DNA of 64,000 nt, from contig JAATEV010000031.1 of NCBI GenBank assembly GCA_015655585.1, positions 1 to 64,000 of the forward strand, written 5' to 3'. Shown piece after piece: positions 33,596-49,946 of this stretch. Position 1 is the stretch's first letter. Each line of letters opens with the position of its first letter. The notes beneath the pieces are model-generated. The model did no database searches, was not told where the DNA came from, and was given only the letters and a program-made list of their open reading frames with translations. A program made the translations under genes and the position numbers. Origin of the DNA: Terriglobales bacterium. GTDB lineage: Bacteria; Acidobacteriota; Terriglobia; Terriglobales; Acidobacteriaceae.

Positions 33596-34945
33596 TCAGG
33601 AAGCAGGCACGGCGCTTGTTCCGGCACTGGAAGAGGACAGAATGGCTCGGCGTTCCTTTGTGACCTCCATGCCGATCTGAAGAATCGACCGGAAAGAAAG
33701 AAACGATTCCTCAGAGAGCTTTTCCGCATCGAGATCGCGAACAGCTTCTTCCAGAATGGCCAGCAGTTCGCGCCATATTGCATCCAGCGGCTCTATCGCA
33801 TTGGCCTCCTGCACAACTCCGATCAGCGCCACCACCCGGTTACTATATCCGTCCGCCGTACTCTTCTGCTGCTTCTGCATCCATCGGTTCAGTTGCCATA
33901 TCCACGAAGCAACCATGAACCCCGTCGTGATGATAAAGCCTATAAAGTCTGCATTTGCCTGGAGGAACGTGGGCTTATCTTTGTTGTAGAAGTTGATCGC
34001 TCCAGCGTGCAGCGCAGGGCCAAATCCCCTTTGTGCATCGGGCCTGCGTACCTGCGCAAGCAATAAACGCGCATCTGTCATCTGCGCTGGAATCTCCATC
34101 ATCAATTCCTGTTGCCGCTCTATCAGGACCCCTGTAATGGCTTGAATTGCGGCTGCATCTACATTGTCGCGCGTCAGCAGCGTGCGATGCACCGCGATCG
34201 TTGGCAGGTCTTGCATTGGAACTGGCGGTTCGCCTGAATACGCACCTACGGGAATCAAAGCCGGTTCAAACGCGGGGTGCTCGATCTTCATTGCGGCGGC
34301 CTGCTCGATGGGAAGGAATCGAACCTTGTTCGATTGCACGAGCTTCAGAATCGATGGATTGCCAATGGCACGTACTCGAAAGACGGCATCGGCCTGCCCA
34401 TTTAGAAATGCCTGGTCCGCGGCTTCATCGTTCGCACCGACGAAGTGAAAATCTCCCTCATGCAGTTCGAAGTGTTCTGCTACACGGAGAAAGGATTGAT
34501 ACTGCCCCCCGCTCTGCGCCAGTGCGATTCTCTTTCCGCGCAGATCGATAAAGTGCCGGATCTGAGAGTTTTGCGGCACCATCAGTTGAAACGTGTCGTC
34601 GTACATCACAGCCAGAATTCGCGCCGTCGATGGGGGCATGATGTCGGATTGTGCGGTAGCCAGCTGTGCGCGGCCTTCGCTCAACATCCGCAGGTTTTCT
34701 ACTGTTCCGCCTGTTTCAAGAAGTGTGATTCGAATCTTGGGATGATGCCGTTCTACAACCTTCTTCAACGCATTGCCGAGGATATAACTCTCACCGCCCG
34801 AGTCTCCCGCCGCCAGTGTCAGATACTGCGTCCGAGATTGCTCCCATAGGATGCTCGCGAGCCCGAAGAGGAAAGTCGCGCTCAACAGCATCATCATCAT
34901 CCGAACAACCCTGTTGACGTCCAGATTGAAGTTCAGCTTGACCAT
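33596..34945 (-). CDS. TAXI family solute receptor with C-terminal membrane anchor
   Basis: 449 residues. N-terminal membrane helix (about 14-32), then the TAXI (NMT1-like) binding fold: LTLAAGDSGGESYILGNALK, ETGGTVENLRMLSEGRAQLATAQSD, HFIDLRGKRIALAQSGGQYQ, ADQAFLNGQADAVFRV. A second membrane helix (about 338-358; FIGFIITTGFMVASWIWQLN) and a cytoplasmic helical tail of about 90 residues follow. Typical TAXI receptors end after the binding domain and work with DctQM permeases; none is nearby. The two-anchor form suggests a sensor-like or orphan role. It lies 111 bases downstream of ppk1 on the same strand. Confidence 0.85.
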   Translation of the reverse strand: MVKLNFNLDVNRVVRMMMMLLSATFLFGLASILWEQSRTQYLTLAAGDSGGESYILGNALKKVVERHHPKIRITLLETGGTVENLRMLSEGRAQLATAQSDIMPPSTARILAVMYDDTFQLMVPQNSQIRHFIDLRGKRIALAQSGGQYQSFLRVAEHFELHEGDFHFVGANDEAADQAFLNGQADAVFRVRAIGNPSILKLVQSNKVRFLPIEQAAAMKIEHPAFEPALIPVGAYSGEPPVPMQDLPTIAVHRTLLTRDNVDAAAIQAITGVLIERQQELMMEIPAQMTDARLLLAQVRRPDAQRGFGPALHAGAINFYNKDKPTFLQANADFIGFIITTGFMVASWIWQLNRWMQKQQKSTADGYSNRVVALIGVVQEANAIEPLDAIWRELLAILEEAVRDLDAEKLSEESFLSFRSILQIGMEVTKERRAILSSSSAGTSAVPAS

Positions 34946-35056: not shown

Positions 35057-37165
35057 TTACTCGCCCAACCGATCGCGCGTCAGGCGCATAAGAGCCTGAT
35101 GGCTTCCGATTGTCTCTGGCCCATTGAGGTCTCCTCCTGGTTGAAGCTGCGTATAGTGGCCCTCGACATCGAGTACCCACGCCTGTCTTGAGTCGCGCAG
35201 GAAGATGTCCAACACCTCCCACAGCTTCTGTTTCGCAGCTTCCGCACGCACCGGTGTCACCACCTCGATACGGTTGGAGAGGTTCCGGTGCATCCAGTCC
35301 GCCGAGCCGATGAAAAACTCTCCCTCGGTCGGAATGTCGCTGCCGTTTGCGAAGTGGAAGATGCGAGAGTGCTCCAGAAAGCGGCCGATGATCGAGCGTA
35401 TGCGAATGTTGTCCGTGCGCCCGGCAACTCCCGGACGCAGGCAGCAGAAGCCGCGAATAATCAAGTCGATCTGAACGCCTGCCTGCGATGCATTGCACAG
35501 CGCCTGGATCATGTCCGGATCTTCCAGTTGATTCATCTTGGCGATGATTCTCGCTGGTTTGCCTGCCTGCTTGTTCGCGATCTCCCGGTCAATCAGAGCC
35601 AGCAGCTTCGGCCGCATCGTGGACGGCGCAACCAGCAACGACGTACATGCCGGAGCATGGGAGTGTCCGGTGAGATAGTGGAAGAGGTTCACTACGTCAC
35701 GAGTCAGCTCGGGATTGCAGGTCAGCAGTCCGAGATCCGAATACAGGCGTGCAGTCTTCACGTGATAGTTGCCGGTGCCGATGTGAACATAGGTATGGAG
35801 TCCGCCTGCTTCCTTGCGAACCACAAGTGCTGTCTTGGCATGGGTCTTCAGGCCGCTTACCCCGAAGGTCACATGTGCGCCTACCCGCTCCAGCTCCGCT
35901 GCCCAATGCAGATTGCGCTCTTCGTCGAAGCGCGCTTTGATCTCCATGACACAGGCAACCTGTTTGCCATGCTCCGCCGCGCGAATCAGCGACTTCACAA
36001 ACGGGGTATCGTCGCCGACACGATACGCCGTCATCTTGATTGCGACAGTAGCCGGATCGTCGGCCGCAGTGGCGATGAAGTGCTCTACCGAGGCATCGAA
36101 GCTTTCATAGGGATGGTGCACCAGGATATCGCCTGCCTGAATCGCAGAGAAGAGCGTTCCTTCTCCCAGTGAAGGAGGAGCAATGGGCGTCCACGGCTCA
36201 TCGCGCAGCTCCGGAATCGGGAGTCCGGCGATCTCAAACAGCGACGTGTAATCCAGTTCCTCATCGAGGTCGTACGCGTCGGCGGGAGTCAATTGGAAGC
36301 GTACTCGAAGCATCTCGCGGATCACAGGATCGGAACCGGGTCCGAACTCCAACCGAACCACAGGTTCATAGCGACGCTGACGGATCTGCTTTTCGACAAG
36401 CTCGCGAATCTCCGCGGACGAACCCTCTTCGAGCTCAACCTCTGCGTCGCGAGTGATGCGAACCAGCGTCATGCCGGAGATCGTCATGCCGCCATAGAGC
36501 TTCTCGATGTTGCCGCGAATGACTTCCTGCAACGGCACCAGCAGGCGCTGCCCCGGAGCCACTTCCTGAGTAAGCGGAACCCACTGCCTCAGCCCCGTCG
36601 GAATCTTCAGCCGCGCAACCAACTGCTCGGAGCGCTCCGGATCGTGCAGACGGAACGTCAAGGACGTCGAGAGATTGGAGAGAAACGGGAACGGATGCTC
36701 CGGGTCGATCACCAGCGGTGTCAGCGCTGCAGAGATATTGTTATCGAAGTAAGTGCTGGCCTCTTCCTTCTGTGCAGCGCTCAGGTCGTCCCAGCGCCGC
36801 AGCAGGACGCCATGCTGCTCAAGCTCCGGGATCAACGAGTTGCGATAGCAATGGGCCTGAAGGGCAAGCATCGGGAGCAGCTTCTCGCGCAGTTGCGTAA
36901 ATAGATTGCGCTGCTCTTCTGTCGTCGATCCGCGAAGTACAGCGAAGCGCTTCATGAAGAACTCGTCGAGGTTCGACGTGAAGATGGCCAGAAACTTCGC
37001 ACGCTCCAGAAGAGGAGTACGCACATCCAATGCCTCTGCCAGAACTCTCTCGTTGAAGTCCAGCCAGCTCAGGTCGCGGTCAATCCAGACCTCAGACAGT
37101 TCGACCGACAGTGGGGCGTTCAGAACTCCCTCGTCGCCTACAGATGCGAGAACACTCGTTGCCAT
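35057..37165 (-). CDS. ppk1: Polyphosphate kinase 1
   Basis: 702 residues, normal PPK1 length. N domain opens with WIDRDLSWLDFNERVLAEAL; head domain follows; C1/C2 domains carry the family signatures HHPYESFDASVEHFIATAAD, KMTAYRVGDDTPFVKSLI, HTYVHIGTGNYHVKTARLYS (with the conserved His) and HSRIFHFANGSD with EFFIGSADWMHRNLSNRIEV. PPK1 reversibly makes polyphosphate from ATP, on the inner membrane in other bacteria. A phosphate link with the pst/pho module at 5.7-12.5 kb is likely in physiology, but no clear Pho box was seen in the 481-base gap upstream. Confidence 0.96.
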   Translation of the reverse strand: MATSVLASVGDEGVLNAPLSVELSEVWIDRDLSWLDFNERVLAEALDVRTPLLERAKFLAIFTSNLDEFFMKRFAVLRGSTTEEQRNLFTQLREKLLPMLALQAHCYRNSLIPELEQHGVLLRRWDDLSAAQKEEASTYFDNNISAALTPLVIDPEHPFPFLSNLSTSLTFRLHDPERSEQLVARLKIPTGLRQWVPLTQEVAPGQRLLVPLQEVIRGNIEKLYGGMTISGMTLVRITRDAEVELEEGSSAEIRELVEKQIRQRRYEPVVRLEFGPGSDPVIREMLRVRFQLTPADAYDLDEELDYTSLFEIAGLPIPELRDEPWTPIAPPSLGEGTLFSAIQAGDILVHHPYESFDASVEHFIATAADDPATVAIKMTAYRVGDDTPFVKSLIRAAEHGKQVACVMEIKARFDEERNLHWAAELERVGAHVTFGVSGLKTHAKTALVVRKEAGGLHTYVHIGTGNYHVKTARLYSDLGLLTCNPELTRDVVNLFHYLTGHSHAPACTSLLVAPSTMRPKLLALIDREIANKQAGKPARIIAKMNQLEDPDMIQALCNASQAGVQIDLIIRGFCCLRPGVAGRTDNIRIRSIIGRFLEHSRIFHFANGSDIPTEGEFFIGSADWMHRNLSNRIEVVTPVRAEAAKQKLWEVLDIFLRDSRQAWVLDVEGHYTQLQPGGDLNGPETIGSHQALMRLTRDRLGE

Positions 37166-37646: not shown

Positions 37647-38495
37647 ATGACGCCCGAGCAAGAGCCCATGGATACAACGGACCGCGCGAGCCTGGTGCGT
37701 GCGGTTGCACTTCTCGAAAAAAATAGTTTTGTCACGATGCTTGCTGGCGTGCTGGATCGTCCGGTCAACGCAGTGGTAGCATCCATGCCGTCGTTTGTCG
37801 GCGAGACCATCATGAGGGCTTCTAAGAATGCGATCCTGCAATGTCTTAAGATCGCCTTGAAGCCTAGAAGTCAGCAAAGTCTTCTCGCCAGGGCGGGAAA
37901 TCATCCGGCATTGATATCCGGAATCACCGGGGCGGTCGGTGGCTTTGCAGGAATGGCCGGACTTGCGCTGGAACTTCCTTTCACCACGCTCATCATGTTT
38001 CAGTCGATTACCCGTATTGCCGCTGAGGAAGGTGAAGACATCTCCCGGCCTGAAGTTCGGCTGGCGTGTCTTGAGGTGTTCGCTTTGAGCACCGACGGAA
38101 GAGGCCCCGCAACCGTTGAGTCCGGGTATTACGCGGCTAGAAGCGCCCTGGCCAAATCAGCGGACGAAGCCGCAAACTACGTGTTGCGGCGCAGCACTTC
38201 GCTGGAGGCGGGTCCTGCAGTGGTAGGGTTAGTCTCCGCGATCGCTCCTCGTTTCGGATTGCTCGTCTCCCAGGAACTCGCGGCAGCGGCCATTCCTATT
38301 ATTGGCGCGGCTGCCGGAAGTTCGCTGAACATTGCTTTCGTGCAGCACTTCAACAACATCGCGCGTGGTCATTTCGTAGTACGCCTGCTGGAACGAAAAT
38401 ATAGCGAGGAAAGAGTTCGCGCAGAGTTCGAGGCGATCCGGTTGGCCGCCGAACAGCAGAGAAGACTGAAGCATGAAAGAAAAACTTCCAGATAA
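37647..38495 (+). CDS. EcsC family protein
   Basis: 282 residues. The EcsC-like pattern is visible: an N-terminal helical part, a hydrophobic Gly/Ala-rich hairpin (ALISGITGAVGGFAGMAGLA) running into LELPFTTLIMFQSITRIAAE, and a second hydrophobic hairpin (LAAAAIPIIGAAAGSSLNIA) followed by HFNNIARGHFVVRLLERKY. EcsC was first named in a Bacillus ABC transporter locus, but its biochemical function is unknown. Two possible ATG starts (37647, 37668), neither with a strong ribosome site. Its 3' end overlaps a DUF1345-like remnant on the other strand. Confidence 0.8.
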   Translation: MTPEQEPMDTTDRASLVRAVALLEKNSFVTMLAGVLDRPVNAVVASMPSFVGETIMRASKNAILQCLKIALKPRSQQSLLARAGNHPALISGITGAVGGFAGMAGLALELPFTTLIMFQSITRIAAEEGEDISRPEVRLACLEVFALSTDGRGPATVESGYYAARSALAKSADEAANYVLRRSTSLEAGPAVVGLVSAIAPRFGLLVSQELAAAAIPIIGAAAGSSLNIAFVQHFNNIARGHFVVRLLERKYSEERVRAEFEAIRLAAEQQRRLKHERKTSR

Positions 38496-38824: not shown

Positions 38825-39919
38825 ATGAAGGAAATCGGCACCAACTTGCGGAGATTCATTCCGCTTGTATTCGTACCCTTGTCTCTTGTCCTTCATCATT
38901 TTTCTCTTGTTGCTACGCCGTGGGTGTTCCTCTGCGGTTTGATCGCGATCGGAGTGCTGGCCAACTGGGTGCGAAAAGGCACCGAGCAGGTGGCGGCCCA
39001 TGCTGGGAATACGATTGGCAGCTTGCTGAATGTCAGCTTCGGCAATGCTTCCGAGCTGGTTCTGGCTTTGTTCGTGTTATCGAGCGCGCAAACCAGCGTG
39101 GTACAGGCTCAGATCACCGGCTCAATCATCGGCACTACGCTCCTGTTCCTCGGAGTAGCGGCTCTGGTGGGTGGTCTGCGGCAGGAACGACAAAAATTCA
39201 ACCAGGAGCACGTCGGGCTGCTATCCACTCTGCTGCTATTGCTGGCCGTGGCCATCGTGCTCCCCGCCGTCTTCCATGCGACCGAGCGGCATTTGACTCC
39301 AGAAGCAAATTTTTCTCGGCTGGACGAAGGTCTGAGCCTGGGCGTCTCGGTCGTGCTGTTGTTGCTGTACGGAGCCCACCTCGTCTATGTCCTCGTAACT
39401 CATAAAAGCGTTTTCTCTAGTGGGCATGAGGACAATGGAGGCACGCCAGAGTGGAGCCTGCCAGCAGGCTTGGCGGTGATGGTACTGGGGACCATCGCAA
39501 TCGCATTCGAATCCGAGTTGGTTTCGGCCCGGCTGGCTGAGACCGCATCGAAGACCGGCTTATCTCCCGTCTTCATGGGCGTAGTGGTACTGGCGCTGAT
39601 CGGCACCGTATCCGATCTTTTCGTAGCTGTGTCGTTTGCTCGCGCAGGTCAAATGGATGTCGTGATCAGCCTCTGCCTGGGCTCCGCCATTCAGATTGCC
39701 CTGGTCGTCGCGCCAGTGCTTGTGCTCGTGTCCTGGGCAATCGGACACCCGATGAATCTTGTCTTCGGTAGCCCGCTCGATCTGTTTGCGATTGTCAGCT
39801 CTGTCTTCATCGTGCGGTTCATCGTGGCCGACGGCGAGACGACATGGTTCGAAGGATTTCTACTGATTGGCGTCTACATTCTGTTTGCGCTGGCTTATTT
39901 TTTCCTGGGACACGCATAA
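38825..39919 (+). CDS. CAX family Ca2+/H+ antiporter-like protein
   Basis: 364 residues, ten or eleven predicted membrane spans. The first half carries the canonical CaCA motif (HAGNTIGSLLNVSFGNASELV), with the cation-binding Glu. At the equivalent place in the second half, where CAX proteins normally have GNAAEH, this protein reads LIGTVSDLFVAVSFARAGQM, so Asn is Thr and Glu is Asp, while the following SLCLGSAIQIALVVAP matches CAX well. The acidic loop usually found between halves is reduced to SSGHEDNGG. It may have altered ion selectivity or activity. It is convergent with a carbonic anhydrase gene 17 bases away, hinting at calcium/bicarbonate physiology. Confidence 0.87.
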   Translation: MKEIGTNLRRFIPLVFVPLSLVLHHFSLVATPWVFLCGLIAIGVLANWVRKGTEQVAAHAGNTIGSLLNVSFGNASELVLALFVLSSAQTSVVQAQITGSIIGTTLLFLGVAALVGGLRQERQKFNQEHVGLLSTLLLLLAVAIVLPAVFHATERHLTPEANFSRLDEGLSLGVSVVLLLLYGAHLVYVLVTHKSVFSSGHEDNGGTPEWSLPAGLAVMVLGTIAIAFESELVSARLAETASKTGLSPVFMGVVVLALIGTVSDLFVAVSFARAGQMDVVISLCLGSAIQIALVVAPVLVLVSWAIGHPMNLVFGSPLDLFAIVSSVFIVRFIVADGETTWFEGFLLIGVYILFALAYFFLGHA

Positions 39920-39936
39920 GCTTACGCTGCGGTGCT

Positions 39937-40590
39937 CTATTGGAGTTGGGCCAACAGCGTCTCCATGGGTAGCAACTCGCGATCTTCTGCATCGAAGACA
40001 CGTATCGTGCCTGCGCCGATGTTGTAGACCCAGCCATGCATCTCCACGCTGTTGTCAGCAAGTCTCGTCGCTATGGCGGGATGCGTTCGCAGATTAGCAA
40101 GCTGCGTGCGCACATTCTGCTCCACCAGCGACTGGACCGCTTCTGGTCCCTCAAGCCCCGAGTTCGCGGCCTCGACCGTATCGCGGACGACCGTCGCGTT
40201 GCGTAGCCAGGAGTTGACGGCGGGCATGTGCTCCGTCTTTGTGGGCATGTGCAGGCCCTTCATCGCACCGCAATCGGAGTGCCCGCAAATCACGATCTCT
40301 TTCACGCCCAACTCGATGCAGGCGTACTCGATCACGGCAGAATCTTCACACGAACTCCTGTTATAGGGAGGCACGATATTGCCGATGTTGCGGCACACGA
40401 ACAGCTCTCCCGGGGCAGTCTGGGTGATGAGTTCAGGAACAATGCGGCTGTCCGCGCAGGTGATGAACAGCGTATGAGGGTGCTGGCCAGACGCTAGATG
40501 TTCGAAGATGGCGTGATCATGCGGAAACTCGTTGTCGTGAAACCGGCGGACACCTTCGAGCAGCCGTCGTATCGGTCGTTTTTCGCTCAT
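39937..40590 (-). CDS. Beta-carbonic anhydrase
   Basis: 217 residues from the ATG at 40588-40590 (AAGGAGA four bases upstream); the frame is open further but without a start of equal quality. Zinc ligands are seen in FITCADSRIVPE (Cys, Asp-Arg dyad) and VICGHSDCGAMKGL (His, Cys), in the normal order, with FVCRNIGNIVPP and VIEYACIELGVKEI between. Interconverts CO2 and bicarbonate in the cytoplasm. It lies between the CAX-like gene (convergent) and an Nramp-related gene whose stop is 77 bases upstream on the same strand. Confidence 0.95.
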   Translation of the reverse strand: MSEKRPIRRLLEGVRRFHDNEFPHDHAIFEHLASGQHPHTLFITCADSRIVPELITQTAPGELFVCRNIGNIVPPYNRSSCEDSAVIEYACIELGVKEIVICGHSDCGAMKGLHMPTKTEHMPAVNSWLRNATVVRDTVEAANSGLEGPEAVQSLVEQNVRTQLANLRTHPAIATRLADNSVEMHGWVYNIGAGTIRVFDAEDRELLPMETLLAQLQ

Positions 40591-40667
40591 GCGCTCTCCT
40601 TTGGCCTCGCTTCGTTTGACATGGTACAAATACCCGTCGAATCTCTTACCGCATGGAACGTAAAACC

Positions 40668-41975
40668 CTAAGGCTGCAAACTCGATGTCGCGGCCTTCAG
40701 GTGTGTCGCGAGCTGAAGCTGAACCTTCCGCGGCAGATGCTGCTCCGAGATGACACCGGCAAGCCCAGTAACAATGACAAGGCTCGATATCCCAATCAAA
40801 GACCAGAGATACACACCTTGCGGTCGGAACGGCTGCGGAAGCACCTTCACCGCCAGCGCGACCAGAAGAATAATCACCAGCGGAAGCATAAAAACATTCA
40901 CTACCTGCGCGGTGATCGTGAGCCATACAAGATCCGGTGCAAAGCAAACCAGTGCAGCAGCGCCCATAACGCTGGCGGAATAGATTCCATAGAGCCACTT
41001 TGCTTTGAACGGATGGTTCTCCAGGCTACGCTGCTGACCGGTAACCTCACTGACTCCCCATGTGAGCGCCAGCGAGGACACGATGGCGGCCACCGTAGAG
41101 GCACCCAGCACGCCAATGCTGAAGACCAGGCGACCGATGTGTTCTCCAAGAAAGGGTGATAGTTCCTTGCTGATGTCGCCGACAGTGTGCAGACCCGGAA
41201 CAATGCCGTGAGAAGCCAGCGCCGCTGCTGCAATCAGGATGGCTCCGGTCAGGCACTGCGTCAGCACAGCACCGATGGCAGTGTCCCATCGAGCTGCCCC
41301 GATGCTGCACGGCGAGAGCTTTTTATCGGCAAAGGCGGATTGTTGATAGAAGATCATCCACGGGCTGAAAACCGCGCCAATGATTGCAGTCGCCAGATAA
41401 GTGAACTGTCCATTCCTGATCGGCAGGTTCACGACATCCTTGCCCATGGCTGCGAGGCTCGGATGTGCGGACCAGGCAACGAAGAAAAAAACAAGTTCGA
41501 AAAGCCCGATAACAACGAGGATGCGTTCCACTCGCCGATACGAGCCCGTAGCTGCAATAGCCAGAAGGATCACCACAGTAAAGGACAGCGTGATGCCGCG
41601 CGGCACGCCATAGAGATCGCCGATACCAGCTATCCCGGTGAACTGTGTGACCAGCGTGCTGATCGCAGCTACAGCCATCGCTGCCGTCGCCGACCAGGCC
41701 CAGCCAGTGCCAAACCGTTCCCGGATCAACTCGCCAAAGCCGCGTCCTGTGTAGATCCCCAACCGCACCGTCAGCTCCTGCACCATGTAGAGCATCGGTA
41801 TCAGAAGCAAAACCAGCGGCAACAGCCGATATCCCCACTGAGCTCCAGCCTGCGCGCCAGTCACTACGTTGCCCGCGTCTGTATCGGACAACATCACCAG
41901 AAGTCCCGGCCCTCCGACGGTCATCCATTTGAGGGGCGTTTTGATGTTTATCTTGAGTGGCGCTTCAGTTACCAA
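40668..41975 (-). CDS. Second Nramp-related metal transporter
   Basis: 435 residues, eleven or so membrane spans. Helix 1 site reads MLSDTDAGNVVTGAQAGAQW instead of the classical DPGN context, and helix 6 reads AVFSPWMIFYQQSAFADK instead of MPHNLYLHS, so the soft-metal Met ligand of MntH is replaced by Ser-Pro-Trp. It is only distantly like the Nramp-related protein at 32345-33595. Likely to carry a divalent cation with proton coupling, but the ion is unclear. It is upstream of the carbonic anhydrase gene on the same strand and may share its transcript. Confidence 0.83.
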   Translation of the reverse strand: MVTEAPLKINIKTPLKWMTVGGPGLLVMLSDTDAGNVVTGAQAGAQWGYRLLPLVLLLIPMLYMVQELTVRLGIYTGRGFGELIRERFGTGWAWSATAAMAVAAISTLVTQFTGIAGIGDLYGVPRGITLSFTVVILLAIAATGSYRRVERILVVIGLFELVFFFVAWSAHPSLAAMGKDVVNLPIRNGQFTYLATAIIGAVFSPWMIFYQQSAFADKKLSPCSIGAARWDTAIGAVLTQCLTGAILIAAAALASHGIVPGLHTVGDISKELSPFLGEHIGRLVFSIGVLGASTVAAIVSSLALTWGVSEVTGQQRSLENHPFKAKWLYGIYSASVMGAAALVCFAPDLVWLTITAQVVNVFMLPLVIILLVALAVKVLPQPFRPQGVYLWSLIGISSLVIVTGLAGVISEQHLPRKVQLQLATHLKAATSSLQP

Positions 41976-42189
41976 TGTTTGGTTCCTTGAATTTCAGGGT
42001 TCAAGAGGCTGACCATGAGAACTGAATCGTAGACGACGCTTACGAAAGGTAACACTGAGGCATTGCAGGGTTTGTTAATAAAGATGACGCAGATTTAAAT
42101 TCCATCGCGTTGTTTCGGAGACGCGCTACAGCCTTCATGATTCGATCATGAGATAGCCATGCAAGGGCTCTCTGAGAGCAGAAGTCCAA

Positions 42190-42300: not shown

Positions 42301-42305
42301 TGGTT

Positions 42306-42350
42306 CTTTTGGTTTCTTCGTTCGCATACGACGAACGAAGAAACCAAAAG
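42306..42350. terminator. Perfect 19-bp hairpin at the 3' end of the P-type ATPase cluster
   Basis: CTTTTGGTTTCTTCGTTCG at 42306-42324 pairs perfectly with 42332-42350, with a seven-base loop CATACGA. It is the longest perfect stem I found. It lies 27 bases past the stop codon of the last cluster gene. Unlike a classical terminator it is only moderately GC-rich and lacks a long T-run on the minus strand, though the stem itself ends in TTTT/AAAA. It may be a terminator, an mRNA-stabilising stem or a repeat-derived element. Confidence 0.6.
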
Positions 42351-42376
42351 AGCGTCGGGCTCTGCCAGCCAGAGCC

Positions 42377-42703
42377 CTAGTCGCCGCTGACGGGGGTATC
42401 GGCTGCCTGACGCAGTACCTGCGAAGCTCCTGCCCAGATGACTGCGGTCGGCAACAGCATCGGTTTCTTCACGATCGTAAGTGTCAATTCGGAGCGAGCA
42501 CTATCGTGGCTGAAGCGCACGACGACATCTCCCACGCCCGGGTTCATACTGAGCACGCCGCCAGTGCGGTCCGGATCGAATTGAAGCGAATAATTTCCGC
42601 CAGTCTGGCCTGCGACGCCCGCCTGATTCTGTAGGTTCAAAAGCGATTGAAGCGTGACTCCGGAAAAAACGTGAGTCTTGGACGAAGAAGAAGTGGATGA
42701 CAT
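42377..42703 (-). CDS. Small protein of the P-type ATPase cluster, unknown family
   Basis: 108 residues from the ATG at 42701-42703; the ATG shares one base with the stop of the upstream gene (TGATG), so the two are translationally coupled, with GGGAG ten bases before. The frame is open further 5' but only antisense-like sequence lies there. A Ser-rich start (MSSTSSSSKTHVFSG) precedes a segment predicted to be mostly strands (NYSLQFDPDRTGGVLSMNPG, VVVRFSHDSARSELTLTIVK) and a hydrophobic stretch (PTAVIWAGASQVL). No family recognised. It is the last gene of the cluster. Confidence 0.6.
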   Translation of the reverse strand: MSSTSSSSKTHVFSGVTLQSLLNLQNQAGVAGQTGGNYSLQFDPDRTGGVLSMNPGVGDVVVRFSHDSARSELTLTIVKKPMLLPTAVIWAGASQVLRQAADTPVSGD

Positions 42704-43098
42704 CAGTGAGAGGCTCCCGGTGTGCTTGGATAGCGGCGTTCGATATCGTCGGCCATCCGCGTAATCTGTTTCAGGCTTGCGCGCGTCAGGCGTCCTGGAT
42801 TGCGCCCCACCCAGCGCGACAGCCACTTCCGTCCACCCGGCATCACCACGGCGCCCCCGGCGATCACCAGAGGGAAACCGATAATGCCCGGAAGAACGAC
42901 GCCTAGCACGCCGACATAAATCATCAGCCAGCCGAGCTCACGCGGAAAATTCGCGACGCGTCGCAGAGCCCGTTCGAACTCGGCCTGCTCTTCCGGCGTC
43001 ATCGTCTCTGCATCGGAATTGCCCAGAGGCACAAGGTACGCCGGAGTGGTGATCGTGAGGGCAACGTGAGGGTTGTTGGTGGACGCTTCGGTCGTCAT
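42703..43098 (-). CDS. Small two-helix membrane protein of the P-type ATPase cluster
   Basis: 131 residues from the ATG at 43096-43098 (GGGGAG five bases upstream). Cytosolic acidic N-half (MTPEEQAEFERALRRVANFP) followed by a Gly-rich membrane hairpin at about 58-84 (WLMIYVGVLGVVLPGIIGF, then LVIAGGAVVMPGG) and a basic amphipathic tail (KWLSRWVGRNPGRLTRASLK). The hairpin resembles PGPGW-type small membrane proteins, but I would not assign the family. It lies 25 bases after the pseudo-ATPase gene and overlaps the next gene by one base. Confidence 0.65.
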   Translation of the reverse strand: MTTEASTNNPHVALTITTPAYLVPLGNSDAETMTPEEQAEFERALRRVANFPRELGWLMIYVGVLGVVLPGIIGFPLVIAGGAVVMPGGRKWLSRWVGRNPGRLTRASLKQITRMADDIERRYPSTPGASH

Positions 43099-43123
43099 GT
43101 GCGCTCCCCTTGATCGGAGATTA

Positions 43124-45547
43124 TCATCTTCTGGAATCGTTCCATGATGAACCTGCTGTGTAAATTGACGAATCATCCTCTGCATACCAGGCGGCTTCCG
43201 GTGGTAAAGTATCGTTGCGTGAGATCAGACGAAGCGCTCGATGGGCGCGATTATAAGCTGTGCTGGTGCCGAGGTTGCTGATGACGACCACTGCCAGGCT
43301 GGGAAGTCCAAAGGCGAATGCACCGGCGACACAGGCAAGGTTCGGCACCATCGTCAATCGGCGCAGACTCGCAAGACGAGCCGCGCTGTCGTGAGCCAAC
43401 TGGGCCAGCGCAGGCAGAGGCGCAATCGACCGCCCCAATAGAACGATGTCGGCATCGTTCCAGCAGCTCTCGTTCGAGCCAGCAAGAGCAATAGACAGAG
43501 GAGCGCCGTCCGAATCACACACTTCCGCGCCGGAGTGAACATGGACCACATTCAAGCCTCGCTCGCTGAGGCCGCGCAAGAGCCGTCGACGCAAGTCCGC
43601 ATCCGCATTGCTTATAAACTGATCCACGCCGAGCCGCTCGGCAAGCGGAGCCACCACGGACGCCTCCCGTTCCGAGGCCAGCAACACGCGCAGCCCGGCG
43701 CGTTGCAGACGGCGCACACTGGCAGCCGCGGCAAGGCTCGCAGTACGCTGGAACCGCAGCCGCGCTATCTCGACGCCATCCAACTCGACGCGAAGCGGCG
43801 CGAACCGTGTGGGGTCTGCCTTGCCGGAGAGCCGCAACACATGACCCTCGTACTCAATGACGACAAACGTCGCGCCAATCTCCCGCAGGGCCGCTCTCCG
43901 TGCGATCAGATGACGAGCCCGGCAGGCACGCACCAGCGCCGGGCCGCGTGCATCGCCCAGCCAGACTCCGGCTGAGGCAAGGGCAGGGAACAGGCGGTCT
44001 TCCTCCACGCCGCGTACCTGTATCTCTGCCAGTTCGCAATCCGTCTTCTGCAACTCCTCATGATCCTCCAGAACGACCCACGAACTGGCGGCAAGACGGC
44101 CAAGCGCCTTGTCGGAGCGGATCAGTGCGCCATGACGAATCGCAACCCGGACAGAGCGCAGCGTCTCCAGCGGCACGGCAAGCCCCTCCGCAGTAGCGTA
44201 GTCCGGGCGCATAACTGCGACCGACATCGCCGGTCCACCGGCCAGCAGACCAAGTCCTGCCGCAGCCAGCGAGGGACCCACCGTGCTGTCCGCAAACGTT
44301 TCGGCCTGCCGATTCAGTGTCCATTCGCCGGGAGTCGGCACGGTGGTTCCGATCAGTGTTCGCGACACATGGGCCGCCCGCGTCTGACACCCGGTACGTG
44401 AAGCAGCGAGCTCAAGCTCTCCAGCCAGAAGCCGGCTGCCCGCCAGCACCTCATCTCCCTTGCTCCGCGTTACCGGTGCCGGATCTCCCAGTCTTGCCTC
44501 GTCCACAAGTGCCGCGCCGTCGATAACCACAGCGTCCACAGGAATACGCTCGCCTGCGCGAACCCGAAGACGTTGGCCGACTCCGATCTCCGAACGTGGC
44601 ACCATCTGCTCCAGTCCATCGGCGTTGATCGCCAGGGCTTCGGCGTGCGCTCCCACGATCTCGTCCAGCATGGCCTGGTTCTCGACCTCCAGATCGCGCC
44701 GGTATCGCTGTTCCCAACTACGAAGACACCAGAACATCACCGCAGCAGTCAGGAACTGTCCGCTCAGCAGCGTTAAGGCTGCAATGCTCGTATAGAGCAC
44801 GGGCAGGCCAACCCTGCCTTCGGATAACTGTTCCGTGGCAGCGCGAACAGTGTCCAAATTGTTCACAACAAGCAGGCCAGCCGCAACAGGCATCACCGCA
44901 GGGAGCACAAACTCGCTGATAGCAGACACGCCGAGCGAAACGTTGGCCATATCGAAATCGACCTTCTCCGCTACCTCCACAACATGCAGATCTGGCGGCG
45001 CCAGCAACTCGGCTTCAATACACCGCACCAGCTTCATCGCTGACGTAGTAGCGGGGTCGAACTCCATCATCAACTTGTCAGCGTCGAGAGTCGCTTCAAG
45101 CAGGCCCGGAATCTGCCGCAACGCATCCACGACTCGGCGAGTTGTCGATGAGTTGCGCCGGATAGCTCGATGCCTCACCTCAAGATAACTTTTCTCAAGA
45201 GTAAGGATTTCGAGGAGCGTGATCATGTCGCCATATCTACGCAGTTTGACGGTTTCTCCTGACCGCCACTTCGGCATCATCTCAGGTTTCGGATCGTCAT
45301 CGCTCGTCAAGGCATCGGCAAGGCGGCCTACGAAGATCTGTTGCTCCTTCATCGAACCGCGATACCGCACAGCCGCTGTTGCGCGCACGGTATCGATCTC
45401 GATCGAGCGCACCTCGGCAAGACGAAAGAGCCGTCGTGCGAACAGCTCTGCGGACGCTTCCTGTCCATGTGCAAACATGCGAGGATCGGTGACGAACAGC
45501 ATCCCCGGTCGGCTGATAACCGATAAACCTTGCGTCGCTTCGCTCAA
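43124..45547 (-). CDS. Degenerate P1B-like P-type ATPase (probable pseudo-ATPase)
   Basis: 807 residues from a TTG at 45545-45547, which overlaps the stop of a 54-residue ORF as TTGA. Two HMA-like N-terminal modules lack CxxC (about 1-82 and 118-185; IPGLLEATLDADKLMMEFDP). Membrane hairpins follow at about 203-230 and 246-275, an actuator domain at about 325-375 (RVRAGERIPVDAVVIDGAAL), and C-terminal helices at about 733-765. Catalytic motifs are lost: TGES becomes LGDP (353-356), DKTGT becomes EDHEE (494-498) and GDGxND becomes SGAEVC (672-677). The frame is intact over its whole length, so it is not a decaying pseudogene. It should not form the phospho-aspartate and I infer a structural or regulatory partner of the active ATPase at 46890-49463. 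Confidence 0.82.
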   Translation of the reverse strand: MSEATQGLSVISRPGMLFVTDPRMFAHGQEASAELFARRLFRLAEVRSIEIDTVRATAAVRYRGSMKEQQIFVGRLADALTSDDDPKPEMMPKWRSGETVKLRRYGDMITLLEILTLEKSYLEVRHRAIRRNSSTTRRVVDALRQIPGLLEATLDADKLMMEFDPATTSAMKLVRCIEAELLAPPDLHVVEVAEKVDFDMANVSLGVSAISEFVLPAVMPVAAGLLVVNNLDTVRAATEQLSEGRVGLPVLYTSIAALTLLSGQFLTAAVMFWCLRSWEQRYRRDLEVENQAMLDEIVGAHAEALAINADGLEQMVPRSEIGVGQRLRVRAGERIPVDAVVIDGAALVDEARLGDPAPVTRSKGDEVLAGSRLLAGELELAASRTGCQTRAAHVSRTLIGTTVPTPGEWTLNRQAETFADSTVGPSLAAAGLGLLAGGPAMSVAVMRPDYATAEGLAVPLETLRSVRVAIRHGALIRSDKALGRLAASSWVVLEDHEELQKTDCELAEIQVRGVEEDRLFPALASAGVWLGDARGPALVRACRARHLIARRAALREIGATFVVIEYEGHVLRLSGKADPTRFAPLRVELDGVEIARLRFQRTASLAAAASVRRLQRAGLRVLLASEREASVVAPLAERLGVDQFISNADADLRRRLLRGLSERGLNVVHVHSGAEVCDSDGAPLSIALAGSNESCWNDADIVLLGRSIAPLPALAQLAHDSAARLASLRRLTMVPNLACVAGAFAFGLPSLAVVVISNLGTSTAYNRAHRALRLISRNDTLPPEAAWYAEDDSSIYTAGSSWNDSRR

Positions 45548-45708
45548 TCCGTCGCGACTCCGTAGTACGAAATCGCAGTCTCCTGCCTCATCTCGTCGCG
45601 AGAGAGCAGGAACAGTACGTCTCGGTCTCTGAACATGTTGAGCAGAGATTGCAGCCTTCGCTGTATCTGTTGAATCGCGTCGATCGTAAGGGCCACCGTG
45701 CCAGTCAT
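45544..45708 (-). CDS. 54-residue ORF coupled to the pseudo-ATPase gene
   Basis: ATG at 45706-45708; stop TGA at 45544-45546 overlaps the TTG start of the pseudo-ATPase by the four-base TTGA. The product starts MTGTVALTIDAIQQIQRRLQ and continues SLLNMFRDRDVLFLLSRDEM, ending ISYYGVATD. It is amphipathic and helical in the first 35 residues, with no membrane span and no Cys. The frame remains open a little 5' of the ATG but has no better start, and the ribosome site is weak. No family recognised. The overlap and cluster position are the main reasons to believe it. Confidence 0.5.
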   Translation of the reverse strand: MTGTVALTIDAIQQIQRRLQSLLNMFRDRDVLFLLSRDEMRQETAISYYGVATD

Positions 45709-45784
45709 CGCGTCATAGACGAGCGCCGCACCCTTGAGGGATGCGGCTCGCCCTGACTGACTAAGAGCAATTCAAAATATGAAG

Positions 45785-45991
45785 TTAAGCAACCACGATT
45801 TTGTGGTGCGGGATGAGCGTTCCGGCAGCAACCATATCTTCCAGTTGGCCGAACATGACCGCATCATCCGCATCGATTATGTTAAACAACTCGCCCAGTT
45901 GCTTCCTCTTTCGCTGGATTGCAAAAGCAAGGTAGCCGACTGCAACCACAGCCACTGCACCCGCCAGAACATCACCGAAGCTTTCAAACAT
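45785..45991 (-). CDS. Small one-helix membrane protein of the P-type ATPase cluster
   Basis: 68 residues; GGAGGT lies six bases before the ATG, a strong ribosome site. One N-terminal membrane helix (about 8-24; DVLAGAVAVVAVGYLAFAIQ), a basic stop-transfer (RKRK), then a short cytosolic tail (LGELFNIIDADDAVMFGQLE, ending AAGTLIPHHKIVVA). Single-helix subunits of this sort accompany some P-type ATPases (for example KdpF or sarcolipin-like regulators), which is only an analogy. No family recognised. Confidence 0.75.
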   Translation of the reverse strand: MFESFGDVLAGAVAVVAVGYLAFAIQRKRKQLGELFNIIDADDAVMFGQLEDMVAAGTLIPHHKIVVA

Positions 45992-46043
45992 GGACTTACC
46001 TCCAAAAATATTGTTCTGTTTCTTTGCTGCATTGCTTGGAACG

Positions 46044-46733
46044 CTACGCTTCCATCATCGCCCCGTGAGCGGCCTCGCCCACAATCTCGATAGCGCCCGC
46101 CAGCCCCTGCTTGTTCAGCTTGCGACGAACATCCGCTTCCAGATCATGCGCGTCGCGATGTGTATTGATGAAGCGTGCAAACATCTTTAGTGCGGACAGG
46201 CAAGCGGCATCACCTTCCTGTAACCCAAGATGGAGCCGGAAGCCACGCGCATTTTTCCGGTTGCAATGGACCTTCGGAGATAGATCATGCACCGCAATAA
46301 TCGGATCGTGACCGATAAGCCCCTTGTTCTTACGCAGCAGTGCAACCGACTTTTCCCGGTCGAGGACGTAGATGGGGTCCTCGTGGGTAAGGTCGTGGAT
46401 AAGATCAAAATTCTCCTGTAGCACTTTGCTGGCGGGATGGTTCCAGCCGGAATCGATGATGAAGATGCGGAACCGCGATCCCTCGTCACGCGGATCGGCA
46501 GGCGGCATGGTCTTCGTCGAGGCCGCGACAGGTTCCGGCGCTGCCGCAGTCTCCACATGCTCAGAAACGCTCTCTGGGTGTGCGTCGATAGTCTCTATCT
46601 GTTCGTCGGCTTTGTCCGAATGTGCATCGGCAATCTCTGCCGTTGCGGCTCGCATAGCCGATGCTTTTGAAGATACGGAAACGATACGTTTGGACTTTCC
46701 GGAAATCTCTGTTCGCCCAGTTGTAGCAGCCAT
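46044..46733 (-). CDS. Cytosolic protein of the P-type ATPase cluster, unknown family
   Basis: 229 residues; GGGGGAG lies seven bases before the ATG. The first 85 residues are low-complexity Ala/Glu/Ser-rich and probably disordered. The folded part (about 88-229) reads RFRIFIIDSGWNHPASKVLQ, then DLIHDLTHEDPIYVLDREKS, IGHDPIIAVHDLSP and HLGLQEGDAACLSALKMFAR, an alternating strand/helix pattern suggesting a Rossmann-like or thioredoxin-like domain. No signal peptide or membrane span. I do not recognise a family. Located 156 bases after the active ATPase gene. Confidence 0.75.
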   Translation of the reverse strand: MAATTGRTEISGKSKRIVSVSSKASAMRAATAEIADAHSDKADEQIETIDAHPESVSEHVETAAAPEPVAASTKTMPPADPRDEGSRFRIFIIDSGWNHPASKVLQENFDLIHDLTHEDPIYVLDREKSVALLRKNKGLIGHDPIIAVHDLSPKVHCNRKNARGFRLHLGLQEGDAACLSALKMFARFINTHRDAHDLEADVRRKLNKQGLAGAIEIVGEAAHGAMMEA

Positions 46734-46889
46734 GTCAAATCTCCCCCTGATTTATCGATCTCCAGCCCTCTACTTCGTAACAGGCGCCGTTTCGCACCGT
46801 CTATACGCAAAGCATTAAAAAAGCTTCACTACGGCAAACTTGAAATCTGCGGTTGATGCTTTAGTTCGTAAACCGCAATGGAACCACGA

Positions 46890-49463
46890 TCAGGCCGCTT
46901 CCGAAGAGGCTTCCATCTCCTCTTCTTCGGCCTCCTCCATCTCATCGCTCTCGTTCGTCTGCGGTGCATCCAGCAGACCGCTCGCTCGCAGTTCCATCTC
47001 CATGATGTGCTGACGCTCTGCCTCGTAGCCCGCGACCTTCCGCATCGGGCGAATACCATTCGCCAGCGCCGCCAGGGCCGCGACATTGTTGGTCAGCACC
47101 GACATGGCGATCCCGAAACCCATCGTGAACACGCCCACGATGCACAGGATATTGGGTGCGAGGATGAGTCCCCAGCTAATGCGTACATTGCTCTGCAACT
47201 CGTGGGAGATGTCCAGCAGCTCGCACAGCTTGCCAAGCCCCGGCTCCATGAACACCACTTGAGCAGTATCCGTAGCAATCGAGGTGGCCCCACGCAGTGA
47301 GATCGAAACATTCGCCTTCTTCAGTGCAATCGCATCGTTCACCCCATCGCCCACGAAGCAGACCTTGCGGCCTTCCTGCTGCAACCGCTCCACATAGTCT
47401 GCCTTGTCGGTAGGCAGCACCTGTGCGAAGTAGCGGTCCATGCCAAGTTGTTCGGCAAGCCTGCGTGTAGGAGCTTCGTGGTCTCCGGAGATAATCGCGA
47501 TGTGCTTGATGCCTCGCTCACGCAGGCCCTTGATGATCTCCGGCACCTCCGGCCTCACCGAGGCGCGCAGCTCCAGCGCTCCTCCGATAGCATCGTCCAC
47601 TGCCACCATTACCATCGTGTGGCCCTCGCGATGCGCCTCCGCCAACGCTTCCTCCAACTCCGGTGTCAGCGCAATGCCTTCCATATCCATGAAGCGGCGG
47701 CTTCCCACGCGGATCAGGTGGCCGTCGATGCCAACGCTGATGCCATAACCCACCTTGTACTGCATGGAGTCGCCAAGTGGAAGTTCGAGCCCTTCCTCCT
47801 CTGCCTTCTCCAGAATGGCCAGCGCAATCGGGTGATGGAACTTGCGTTCCGCCGCAGCGGCATAGCGCAGAATCTCCGGCCCCGAGTGCCCGTTTGCGGT
47901 GATGATCTGCCCGATCTCCGGGCGTTCCCGCGTGAGCGTGCCCGTCTTGTCGAAGAGGACCGTGTCCACCTCGCACAGCAGATCCAGCGCACGTCCGTCC
48001 TTCACCAGCACTCCGCGCTGTGCGCACAGAGCCAGCGTCGAGAGCATCGCCAGCGGAGCAGCCATGCGAATGCCTGTTCCCATATCGCTGTTCAGCGCGG
48101 CAGCCGCGCCCTGCGGCCCTATCGTTGCGAACGCCAGCGCGCCAACCGCCAGCGTCGGGATCACGGCCTTATCAGCCAGTTGCTCGCCCTTATGCTGCGA
48201 AGCCAGCGTATAGCCAGCAGTGTTATTCAGGATCTGCGCGATCTTGGACGTTGCCGTCTCGCCGCCGGACTTCTCCACCGCAACCTGCACCTTACCGGCC
48301 ACCATAATCGTTGATGCAAATACCTGGTCCCCAACGCCCTTTTCCGCGGGAGTCGACTCACCGGTCAACGCCTGCTGATCGATCATCGCCATGCCCTCGA
48401 CCACCACGCCGTCCACCGGCACCACCTCGCCAGTGTGGACCAGGACAATATCGCCCTTCTCTAGCTTGTCGAGCGAAACTTGGATCTCCTGACCATCCTT
48501 CAGCATCCATACGAACCGCGGCTGCTTGCCGAAAGCGCCCAGCAGCAGCTTCTTCGAGTTGTCCTCGGTGCGGCGCACCAGGTAGCGTCCGAACCCAAGG
48601 CACCAGGCCAGAATCGCGCCCGGCAGCACCTGTCCGGTGGCCAGACAGGCCATCACGACGATGGAGTCCAACACATCCACGCCAAGCCGCCGCTCCTTGG
48701 TCAGAACCTGCCACGCACTCTTGAAGCTGGGCACCGAGGTATAGGCAAACAGCAGGGCCGATACCGGGATCAGAGCCGGAACCGCCAATTGTGCAACTGC
48801 CGCAATCGGTATCGACGCCGTGCAGATCGCCATGCTGCGGTCCAGCTTGTCGAGCTGGGTAGGATGCTCCGCCGCCATCAGCGCCGAGTCCAGAATCTCG
48901 ATAAGTTGCGAGAGATTCAGTTGGCGCGGATCGTATTCAATATCGATGCGGCACTTCACCGCGTTGGTGTCATAGCGGTTCACCCCGAGCACGCTCATCA
49001 ACTCGCGCTGAATCGCATCGCACAGCGCGCCCTTGCGATAGAGCACTGGATTATTCAGCCGAATCGAGCCCACACGCTCGCGCTCCACCTGCCATCCCGT
49101 AACCCGGCCGCCGGTCAACCGATAGCGCACCACGCCATGCTGGTCCCGAGCCGTGATCGACGGCGAGATCGCCAGCGGCTTCCTGCTCTCCGCGGCATCC
49201 CCGCGCAGCAACGACGCCAGCCGCTCCAGTACACGCTTGCGCGGATGCTGGTTCACGTCAAAATGCAGATCGACATAAGGTGTTTGCGTAGGCGAGAGGA
49301 TTGCCGTATCAATCGCAGGCAGCCGAAGAACGGCTTGAAGAAAGCGCTTGCACGCCTCCCCATCCGGCGACGCAAACAGTTGAGAGCTTTCGACCCGGAT
49401 CACGTCTGCAACGGGGTACGCTAGTCGTATTGCGGATGCTGCTGCCATCTGACCTTCACTCAT
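46890..49463 (-). CDS. P1B-like P-type ATPase without CPx or CxxC metal motifs
   Basis: 857 residues from the ATG at 49461-49463; a GTG at 49502 lies inside a hairpin and is less likely. Two HMA-like modules without CxxC (about 15-90 and 135-195; SVLGVNRYDTNAVKCRIDIE). Membrane helices at about 213-245, 265-291, 432-480 and 760-803. Catalytic motifs are intact: TGES (367-370), DKTGT (505-509), the P1B-type HP locus in KFHHPIA (543-545), and GDGVND (705-710). The helix 6 transport motif, CPC/SPC/CPx in metal pumps, reads GIRMAAPLAML (AAP at 468-470), so no Cys ligand is present. The acidic tail (838-855) is unusual. Substrate unknown; a soft heavy metal is unlikely by the usual logic. Confidence 0.88.
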   Translation of the reverse strand: MSEGQMAAASAIRLAYPVADVIRVESSQLFASPDGEACKRFLQAVLRLPAIDTAILSPTQTPYVDLHFDVNQHPRKRVLERLASLLRGDAAESRKPLAISPSITARDQHGVVRYRLTGGRVTGWQVERERVGSIRLNNPVLYRKGALCDAIQRELMSVLGVNRYDTNAVKCRIDIEYDPRQLNLSQLIEILDSALMAAEHPTQLDKLDRSMAICTASIPIAAVAQLAVPALIPVSALLFAYTSVPSFKSAWQVLTKERRLGVDVLDSIVVMACLATGQVLPGAILAWCLGFGRYLVRRTEDNSKKLLLGAFGKQPRFVWMLKDGQEIQVSLDKLEKGDIVLVHTGEVVPVDGVVVEGMAMIDQQALTGESTPAEKGVGDQVFASTIMVAGKVQVAVEKSGGETATSKIAQILNNTAGYTLASQHKGEQLADKAVIPTLAVGALAFATIGPQGAAAALNSDMGTGIRMAAPLAMLSTLALCAQRGVLVKDGRALDLLCEVDTVLFDKTGTLTRERPEIGQIITANGHSGPEILRYAAAAERKFHHPIALAILEKAEEEGLELPLGDSMQYKVGYGISVGIDGHLIRVGSRRFMDMEGIALTPELEEALAEAHREGHTMVMVAVDDAIGGALELRASVRPEVPEIIKGLRERGIKHIAIISGDHEAPTRRLAEQLGMDRYFAQVLPTDKADYVERLQQEGRKVCFVGDGVNDAIALKKANVSISLRGATSIATDTAQVVFMEPGLGKLCELLDISHELQSNVRISWGLILAPNILCIVGVFTMGFGIAMSVLTNNVAALAALANGIRPMRKVAGYEAERQHIMEMELRASGLLDAPQTNESDEMEEAEEEEMEASSEAA

Positions 49464-49480
49464 GACGCGGCTCTCATCAA

Positions 49481-49501
49481 TGCCGGAGCATCGCTCCGGC
49501 A
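49481..49501. other. Short perfect hairpin before the active ATPase gene
   Basis: TGCCGGAGC at 49481-49489 and GCTCCGGCA at 49493-49501 with an ATC loop, 18 bases before the ATG of the ATPase gene on the minus strand and 55 bases after the stop of the preceding gene. It has no T-run, so it is more likely an mRNA-processing or translation-modulating stem than a terminator. Confidence 0.5.
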
Positions 49502-49556
49502 CGGGTTTAGAGAAGTTGCAAAAACGTTTTGCTTCAGAACGCGCAAGCCGGATCGC

Positions 49557-49871
49557 TTACTTCGTCTCCAGAGCGTCGATCGCCGCGCGTGCGCCGTCTG
49601 TAAATCCACGCATGACCGCATTCTCCGAGGGCAGTGCGTTGGCCATAAAGACTGCGGCATAGGTCACACCGTAGGAGCAGACGTAAGCGCTGGTATAGGA
49701 CAGCTTGGAGAGCGACCGCATCGCCGTTGGCCCCGCTACGCTCACAGCCTCTTTCACCTTGGCGGCATGTTCGCTCGCTGTTGCTGCCGCGTCCCGCATG
49801 GCATCGGCGACAGCGTTGATCGTGGAGTCTTGCGTCCCTAATTCTTCAGCATTCGACACAGTAGCTTCCAT
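49557..49871 (-). CDS. First gene of the P-type ATPase cluster, small unknown protein
   Basis: 104 residues from the ATG at 49869-49871, with GGGGAG six bases upstream. Starts MEATVSNAEELGTQDSTINA; helical Ala-rich N-half (ADAMRDAAATASEHAAKVKE), then a moderately hydrophobic centre (SKLSYTSAYVCSYGVTYAAV) and FMANALPSENAVMRGFTDGA. It could be a peripheral or single-helix membrane protein. Ala-rich helices of this kind recall phasin or magnetosome-like accessory proteins, but likeness is too weak to name. An inverted repeat 41 bases upstream may control the cluster. Confidence 0.68.
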   Translation of the reverse strand: MEATVSNAEELGTQDSTINAVADAMRDAAATASEHAAKVKEAVSVAGPTAMRSLSKLSYTSAYVCSYGVTYAAVFMANALPSENAVMRGFTDGARAAIDALETK

Positions 49872-49911
49872 CTGTTTCTCCCCAAAGTGGATCGTTCCGG
49901 TTGGGCTCAAT

Positions 49912-49946
49912 CTATGAGCGGGAACAGCTCGTATCGACGCTCATAG
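49912..49946. promoter_or_regulatory. Inverted repeat upstream of the P-type ATPase cluster (possible operator)
   Basis: CTATGAGCG at 49912-49920 and CGCTCATAG at 49938-49946 form a perfect 9-base inverted repeat with a 17-base spacer (centre-to-centre 26 bases, about 2.5 helical turns). It ends 41 bases before the first ATG of the cluster. The spacing fits a dimeric regulator site, or a leader-RNA stem. No regulator gene is adjacent. Confidence 0.45.

Follow-up and report, generated by a model that had tools for sequence, protein, structure and literature searches.

A minus-strand gene cluster in a 64,000-nucleotide stretch of DNA from a Terriglobales bacterium (assembly GCA_015655585.1, contig JAATEV010000031.1; the whole stretch is called the window here) encodes two P-type ATPases, an active P1B-type enzyme, G2, and a pseudo-ATPase, G6, which has the architecture of the family without its catalytic residues. 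The pair spans Planctomycetota, Verrucomicrobiota, Alpha- and Gammaproteobacteria. An earlier note on this DNA had seen in the cluster an uncharacterised transport or membrane machine; a real conserved system in which an active P-type ATPase accompanies a dead one does exist, although its eight genes do not all co-occur. No description of such a pair was found in the literature titles and abstracts surveyed, most subscription journals being outside that coverage. Tentatively, the locus may be read as encoding a pump for divalent cations that works alongside a dead sister subunit and small membrane proteins in cation sequestration. The two ATPase genes are:

46890..49463, minus strand: G2, active P1B-type ATPase of 857 amino acids, identified by TIGR01525, its catalytic motifs and family trees
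43124..45547, minus strand: G6, pseudo-ATPase of 807 amino acids with P-type architecture and no catalytic residues

The active ATPase and its dead partner

Relatives were collected by a profile search of genome contigs, the query being three aligned ATPases truncated ahead of DKTG. The best 80 of the 349 relatives obtained, the M. radiotolerans plasmid pMRAD05 and the window make a set of 82 loci (L numbers), 64 of which belong to the G2 family by BLAST (a score above 600 bits against G2, with one truncated copy added), L100 from Thiotrichaceae (Gammaproteobacteria) standing barely above the limit. The 64 come mainly from Planctomycetota, and also from Verrucomicrobiota, Alphaproteobacteria, Methylococcus, other Gammaproteobacteria and one metagenome-assembled genome (MAG) labelled Bacteroidetes. 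Partner counts over them include the window, and many of the contigs are short; the 44 loci with at least 4.5 kb downstream are referred to as sufficiently flanked. L045, a truncated active copy, is excluded from all dead-partner counts.

The loss of catalytic residues is nearly complete in the dead partners. The G6 of the window keeps none of nine aligned catalytic residues, and no dead partner among 43 keeps more than two. The Glu of TGE, the Lys of DKTG and the His of HP are lost in all 43; the Asn of GDGxND (one protein) and the Gly and Thr of DKTG (three and four) are rarely kept, and the second Asp of GDGxND, the Asp of SGD and the Asp of DKTG are kept in four, five and 30 proteins, respectively. 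The membrane residues are a different matter, with the Asp of transmembrane helix (TM) 4 retained in 43/43, the Asn of TM5 in 42/43 and the Asn of TM6 in 39/43, although the TM4 Pro is kept in just 13/43. The engine is thus gone, its membrane residues being retained. The dead partners further share a Trp in the helix that precedes the A-domain (43/43), where active partners mostly have Gly.

G6 matches the P1B-type ATPase family of G2 mainly at the A-domain and the adjoining membrane part. Its full-length AlphaFold2 model has a mean predicted local distance difference test score (pLDDT) of 84.7 and a predicted template-modelling score (pTM) of 0.73, and the order of strands and helices was read as two ferredoxin-like N-terminal domains, the A-domain, a P/N headpiece and the membrane bundle. 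The closest structural matches are P1B-ATPases (ATP7B and CopA-type pumps; E 8e-32), with template-modelling scores of only about 0.3-0.5.

A quick tree was built from 113 rows, comprising 70 of the 88 active rows and all 43 dead partners. A branch with a Shimodaira-Hasegawa-like approximate likelihood ratio (SH-aLRT) support of 100 sets the dead partners apart, and their three subgroups correspond to those of the active partners. A wider tree, to which CPx-type, DYSCALK-type and other GTGIR ATPases were added and in which ten of the 43 dead rows were used, places those ten with 19 active rows and L011 (SH-aLRT 100), without separating a dead branch inside the G2 clade from one beside it. Both trees were flagged for long branches. 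That G6 is specific to the window or a recent relic was rejected on the grounds of the 43 dead partners in many loci and their single branch.

G2 matches TIGR01525 with 414.7 bits, above the cut-off of 346.25, and its N-terminus is a diverged HMA_2-like region (HMA_2 of Pfam only at E 0.012, below cut-off). The catalytic TGE, DKTGT, HP, (S/T)GD and GDGxND are at residues 367, 505, 543, 659 and 705; in agreement with the earlier note they read TGES, DKTGT, HHP, SGD and GDGVND, and the 807-amino acid protein contains none of these strings. P1B heavy-metal ATPases typically have a CPx- or SPC-type motif in TM4. G2 lacks such a motif, presenting NSDMGTGIRMAAP where CPx stands in CPx pumps, and neither CxxC nor CPC occurs in G2 or G6. 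In TM6 the motif is NN and not HN, the first Asn being found in 43/43 paired relatives and the second in 37. The G2 clade, with DxGTGIRxAxP in TM4, stands in the tree apart from both the CPx pumps and the DYSCA(L/I)K type (HMA_2/P1B6-like), and the G2 of the window nests among alphaproteobacterial sequences in a quick tree.

Of the sufficiently flanked loci, the window included, 39 of 44 have a dead partner, counted as a second ATPase without DKTG anywhere in the locus, and in most loci the dead gene is within about 10 kb of G2. Because the profile search had started from the active gene, the reverse test was made in 45 Planctomycete genomes of the order of Aquisphaera (the genome of L044), taking as dead genes those with at least 35% identity to the copy of L046 and as active genes those with E of 1e-150 or lower. 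Both genes are present in 24 genomes, the active one alone in five (genomes G634 and G651-G654), the dead one alone in one (genome G635) and neither in 15, the active gene occurring in 29 genomes in all and the dead one in 25 (Fisher one-sided p 6e-7, the species not being independent). Dead genes lacking the active gene in most relatives, a pattern the earlier note had set against its own claim, were thus not found, the case arising in 1 of the 25 genomes with a dead gene. The two genes share a contig in 19 of the 24 genomes and lie on different contigs in five. Over 43 loci the pairwise distances among active proteins are correlated with those among dead ones (r 0.77, a value reached in none of 2000 permutations).

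Some loci present variants of the ATPases. An otherwise normal active ATPase (L074:9518-12226) has DNTGT in place of DKTGT. In L058, L059, L060, L063, L066 and L084 the soluble protein e103, of about 100 amino acids, is apparently fused to the ATPase C-terminus, and in other Planctomycetes it is a separate protein after the ATPase. Loci of Thiotrichales type (L092, L093, L101 and L104), whose hosts are related to giant sulfur bacteria, encode a pair of related ATPases. Both have catalytic motifs, and in the second TM4 is often divergent. The second ATPase copy is fragmentary in L095, L105 and L114.

The cluster, the island and the neighbouring genes

All eight minus-strand open reading frames of the earlier note are present with the left ends it gave, and the gaps it had described around the active ATPase gene are confirmed, with 93 bases before its start at 49463 and 156 after its end. 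The six frames accompanying the ATPases are:

49557..49871, minus strand: G1, small protein rich in alanine, with a single moderately hydrophobic stretch; homologues in 51/64 loci
46044..46733, minus strand: G3, soluble protein; homologues in 24/64 loci
45785..45991, minus strand: G4, single-TM protein of 68 amino acids, hydropathy peak in residues 1-27; 22/64 loci
45544..45708, minus strand: G5, doubtful frame of 54 amino acids; window only
42703..43098, minus strand: G7, membrane protein whose single long hydrophobic segment covers residues 54-90; 26/64 loci
42377..42703, minus strand: G8, small protein of unknown type; 3/64 loci including the window

Of the eight frames, G5 is without support as a gene. 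It has no homologue among the 81 other loci compared and no clear ribosome-binding site upstream, and for these reasons may not be a gene. A conserved multi-gene system built on the ATPase pair is upheld, but co-occurrence of all eight genes is not, given the distribution of G5 and G8; both other G8 loci come from one Rhodopila MAG. G1, the commonest partner of the ATPase, is preceded by GGGGAG, matches no Pfam family and reaches a hydropathy maximum of 1.23, under the cut-off used. The AlphaFold2 model of G3 has block means of 72-96 over residues 81-220 and a low-confidence N-terminus; its best Foldseek matches are thioredoxin-fold proteins (E 0.012, none below 0.001), so weak a match that the core (about residues 80-220) is only possibly thioredoxin-like, without a CxxC pair. 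G7 weakly resembles DUF6463/DUF454, below the Pfam cut-off. From the upstream bases and the overlap of G7 and G8, the more likely starts are 43098 for G7 and the ATG at 42703 for G8. Profile comparison detected no homology among the small membrane proteins themselves. In the window, no riboswitch matched Rfam at gathering scores, and the scans for promoters (one site, shuffled sequences averaging 2.8) and terminators (nine against 6.2) were uninformative.

The earlier note had confined the unit to 42377-49871. The cluster is there, but the unit is larger, forming part of an inserted stretch of 16.7 kb (about 33,596-50,306) between an Nramp gene (32297-33595) and a NUDIX gene (50307-50783). In three genomes of the same genus (G002, G012 and G011) the homologues of these flanking genes are adjacent, the alignment ends lying about 181, 24 and 121 bp apart; the stretch read in a fourth genome of the genus, G001, contains no Nramp. 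A search of 297 genomes of the phylum for the N-terminal part of G2 found it in two, that of the window and genome G255. A native origin of the cluster in the genus was rejected on both counts, the absence of the island from the site in three same-genus genomes and the rarity of the G2 N-terminus. The other island genes listed are:

33596..34945, minus strand: NMT1-like substrate-binding protein at the left end of the island (PF16868, 2.4e-34), absent from the site in relatives
35057..37165, minus strand: second polyphosphate kinase (PPK1) with four PPK1 domains
37647..38495, plus strand: EcsC-family protein (PF12787, 9.3e-21)
38825..39919, plus strand: CAX-type Ca2+/H+ exchanger (PF01699, 5.7e-41)
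39937..40998, minus strand: beta-carbonic anhydrase (PF00484, 6.3e-48), the family covering residues 176-331 of 353 in the frame as listed
40668..41975, minus strand: Nramp-family transporter of the island (PF01566, 1.9e-60)

The earlier note had placed the cluster among ion genes, and these are indeed tied to it, being in the same inserted stretch and, in the case of CAX, recurring near the cluster elsewhere. In the Rhodopila locus L037, Nramp, G1-G4, G6-G8 and CAX are found together; its CAX is the closest among the loci (74% identical), and the Nramp flanking its cluster is 49% identical. The genome of the window has a resident polyphosphate kinase (PPK) elsewhere, 40% identical to that of the island; such a PPK is also present in 8/8 same-genus genomes searched, the identities over all nine genomes being 39-43%. 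The extra PPK of the island suggests a link to polyphosphate. In Methylococcus (L047) a PPK gene adjoins the cluster.

Over the 64 loci the recurrent neighbours are CAX (14), ExoD (14), EcsC-like proteins (12) and CorA (9), the CAX and EcsC frequencies being raw counts without a matched background. The small membrane protein a104, not in the window, accompanies the ATPase in 21/64 loci. The count for hma379 was not used because its query shares an HMA-like part with the ATPases.

EcsC identity was confirmed by Pfam in L078 and L148. In L076, L078, L086 and L090 (Pirellulales and other Planctomycete MAGs) the EcsC proteins have a G1-like C-terminal tail, owing to which several Pirellulales-type EcsC proteins enter the G1 BLAST family. 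Other P1B-type ATPases, with DYGTGIRVAAP in TM4, are encoded in L141, L146, L147 (the locus of L140), L148 and L099:5995-8139; their lineage is on the opposite side of the tree from the G2 family. Their gene is directly beside EcsC in L146-L148, with a beta-carbonic anhydrase gene a few kb away in L147 and L148. In a same-genus genome (L152:17527-19627; G002:C5:31523-33617) the island PPK has a broken relative, with stops and pieces in different frames, and no ATPase cluster was found in the 38 kb read around it. To the left of the island the window has an MgtE-like gene (29769-31046), which together with the resident Nramp indicates that divalent-cation genes were already plentiful at this site.

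Models for the pump and pseudo-pump

Taking into account that: (i) Asp and Asn are conserved in the membrane part; (ii) CPC and CxxC are absent, and (iii) CAX, CorA and Nramp are neighbours, a hard divalent cation (Ca2+, Mn2+ or Mg2+) is the more likely substrate of G2. In KdpFABC a P-type ATPase is joined by small TM subunits and by a separate subunit that handles the ion without hydrolysis. The cluster is similar in combining a P-type ATPase with a candidate non-hydrolysing ion-handling partner and small TM proteins, and different in that G6 itself has a P-type ATPase fold, not that of a KdpA-type channel; the cluster proteins have no Pfam or NCBIfam match to the KdpA or KdpC families (for G2, among the best 25 of 35 NCBIfam families). 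We propose that G2 would hydrolyse ATP and move the divalent cation. G6 would be its neighbour in the membrane, a subunit that binds or gates the ion without hydrolysing ATP, in a role broadly comparable to that of KdpA for KdpB. The small proteins would keep both in a membrane patch or vesicle, the CAX exchanger would return the ion and polyphosphate would bind it, the outcome being cation sequestration and not plain efflux. The contact between G2 and G6, the substrate and the organelle are all inferred here.

Several observations weigh against this proposal. The TM5 Cys of G2 is conserved in 43/43 active and 28/43 dead partners, and a Cys in the TM region before the A-domain in 42/43 active partners; because of these membrane Cys a soft metal could also be the substrate. 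The TM residues retained by the dead partners may be structural in role, and shared species history partly explains the correlated distances. Five of the 44 flanked loci (L036, L038, L054, L081 and L099) have no dead partner nearby, which disfavours an obligate heteromer of G2 and G6. The MAGs of L054 and L099 carry a pair elsewhere; in those of L036, L038 and L081 no pseudo-type match was obtained at 1e-15 or lower. Among the three closest relatives of the window G2, L036 and L038 are thus without a dead partner and L035 ends inside the ATPase gene. The dead gene is on the opposite strand in L069 and L083. PPK (2/64), Nramp (2/64) and carbonic anhydrase (5/64), the window included, are rare near the cluster, and the CAX and EcsC counts are raw ones. 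Finally, the contig derives from a MAG that is 74.7% complete, and the joins of island and flanks are read from the assembly only.

Could G6 be a relic, a duplicate on its way to losing function that chance and common ancestry have left close to G2? Its rate of evolution exceeds that of G2 (mean distance 0.72 vs 0.44), some lineages lack it and the M. radiotolerans copy is shortened. However, 43 open frames in several phyla on one branch, the TM4 Asp, the Trp before the A-domain and a confidently modelled full-length fold are not what one expects of a relic, making this explanation very improbable. It is also improbable, if less so, that G6 never touches G2 and acts as a sensor of the same ion controlling the cluster or the small proteins. 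Membrane residues kept while the engine is lost would suit a sensor, as would the loci of Hansschlegelia (L075 and L088) and Xanthobacter (L079), where the dead gene is upstream of G2 with other genes between. Yet Pfam finds no added regulator domain in G6, and its TM bundle and headpiece are modelled as one whole.

Two further alternatives start from known assemblies of pumps and small proteins. Ferrosome (fez) operons encode a P1B-type pump, the P1B-6-ATPase FezB, and several small membrane proteins. Ferrosomes are treated in PMC10979944, PMC12574912 and PMC12016538, the last of which reports a six-gene fez operon for R. palustris. A six-gene operon among the loci (L149:6544-10548, also L150 and L151), with two HMA_2-like proteins, three small hydrophobic proteins and an HN-type ATPase, may be of this type, an identification guessed from the number and families of its genes. 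As a first alternative, the cluster would encode a ferrosome-like organelle, in which pump and small membrane proteins make lipid-bounded stores of iron or another cation and the pseudo-ATPase is architectural. The general layout, a P1B-type pump beside small hydrophobic proteins, is shared with the putative fez operon, and storage is suspected for the window cluster too. By contrast, G2 is in another ATPase clade, about 30% identical, L149-L151 standing with L012 and L020 (HN/DYSCALK type) opposite G2 across a branch (SH-aLRT 100, quick tree); TM4 and TM6 have SCALK and HN in the putative fez ATPase, GTGIR and NN in G2, and the cluster differs from that operon in having a pseudo-ATPase. G1, a104, G4 and G7 show no kinship with the putative fez small proteins (best probability 13.7%, operon families of four rows each); FezC/DUF4405 was covered by the Pfam scans of the window proteins alone. 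Identity with the known fez operon was rejected on clade, motifs and small proteins, the fez identity of the reference being itself a guess, and a fez-like organelle in the wider sense is unlikely. We hold a metal-efflux platform like PacL1-CtpC of Mycobacterium, with pump clusters in the plasma membrane, G6 as decoy or regulator and metal resistance as the result, to be rather unlikely as well. A P1B pump beside a small TM partner and possible scaffold, such as a104, is common to both, PacL proteins being described as possible scaffolds of P-ATPase platforms in PMC9374683, and the conserved membrane Cys of G2 would fit. Against it, no DUF1490/DUF6110 match was found by Pfam in the window small proteins or two a104 examples, G2 has neither CPC nor the TM6 HN motif given for P1B6 ATPases in PMC9374683, a dead ATPase is additional, and the island carries the storage-type partners PPK and CAX.

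The proposed pump with a dead sister subunit may also be taken further, to a new class of organelle or machine in which a hetero-oligomer of pump and pseudo-pump, the latter an ion site without an engine, loads a divalent cation into a polyphosphate-linked store. Such a system would be ancient, moved between phyla as a unit and equipped with small proteins unrelated to those of ferrosomes; in this full form the idea is doubtful. Bacterial acidocalcisomes or 'lanthasomes' store polyphosphate with divalent or lanthanide cations, according to PMC4853749 and PMC8969499, and a cation exchanger and a calcium P-type ATPase are candidate acidocalcisome loaders in the former. The likeness of the locus to them consists of the PPK and CAX genes and is known here from genes alone. 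Lanthanide storage, prompted by the methylotroph members, is an idea only.

P-type ATPases are usually regarded as single-engine pumps. A conserved pump/pseudo-pump pair would add heteromeric pairs to transport biology, and it raises the testable question of what an engine-less ion site does for its partner. If the link to polyphosphate and Ca2+/H+ exchange is true, the locus would offer a genetic handle on bacterial cation-polyphosphate stores, the genetics of which is called poorly understood in PMC4853749.

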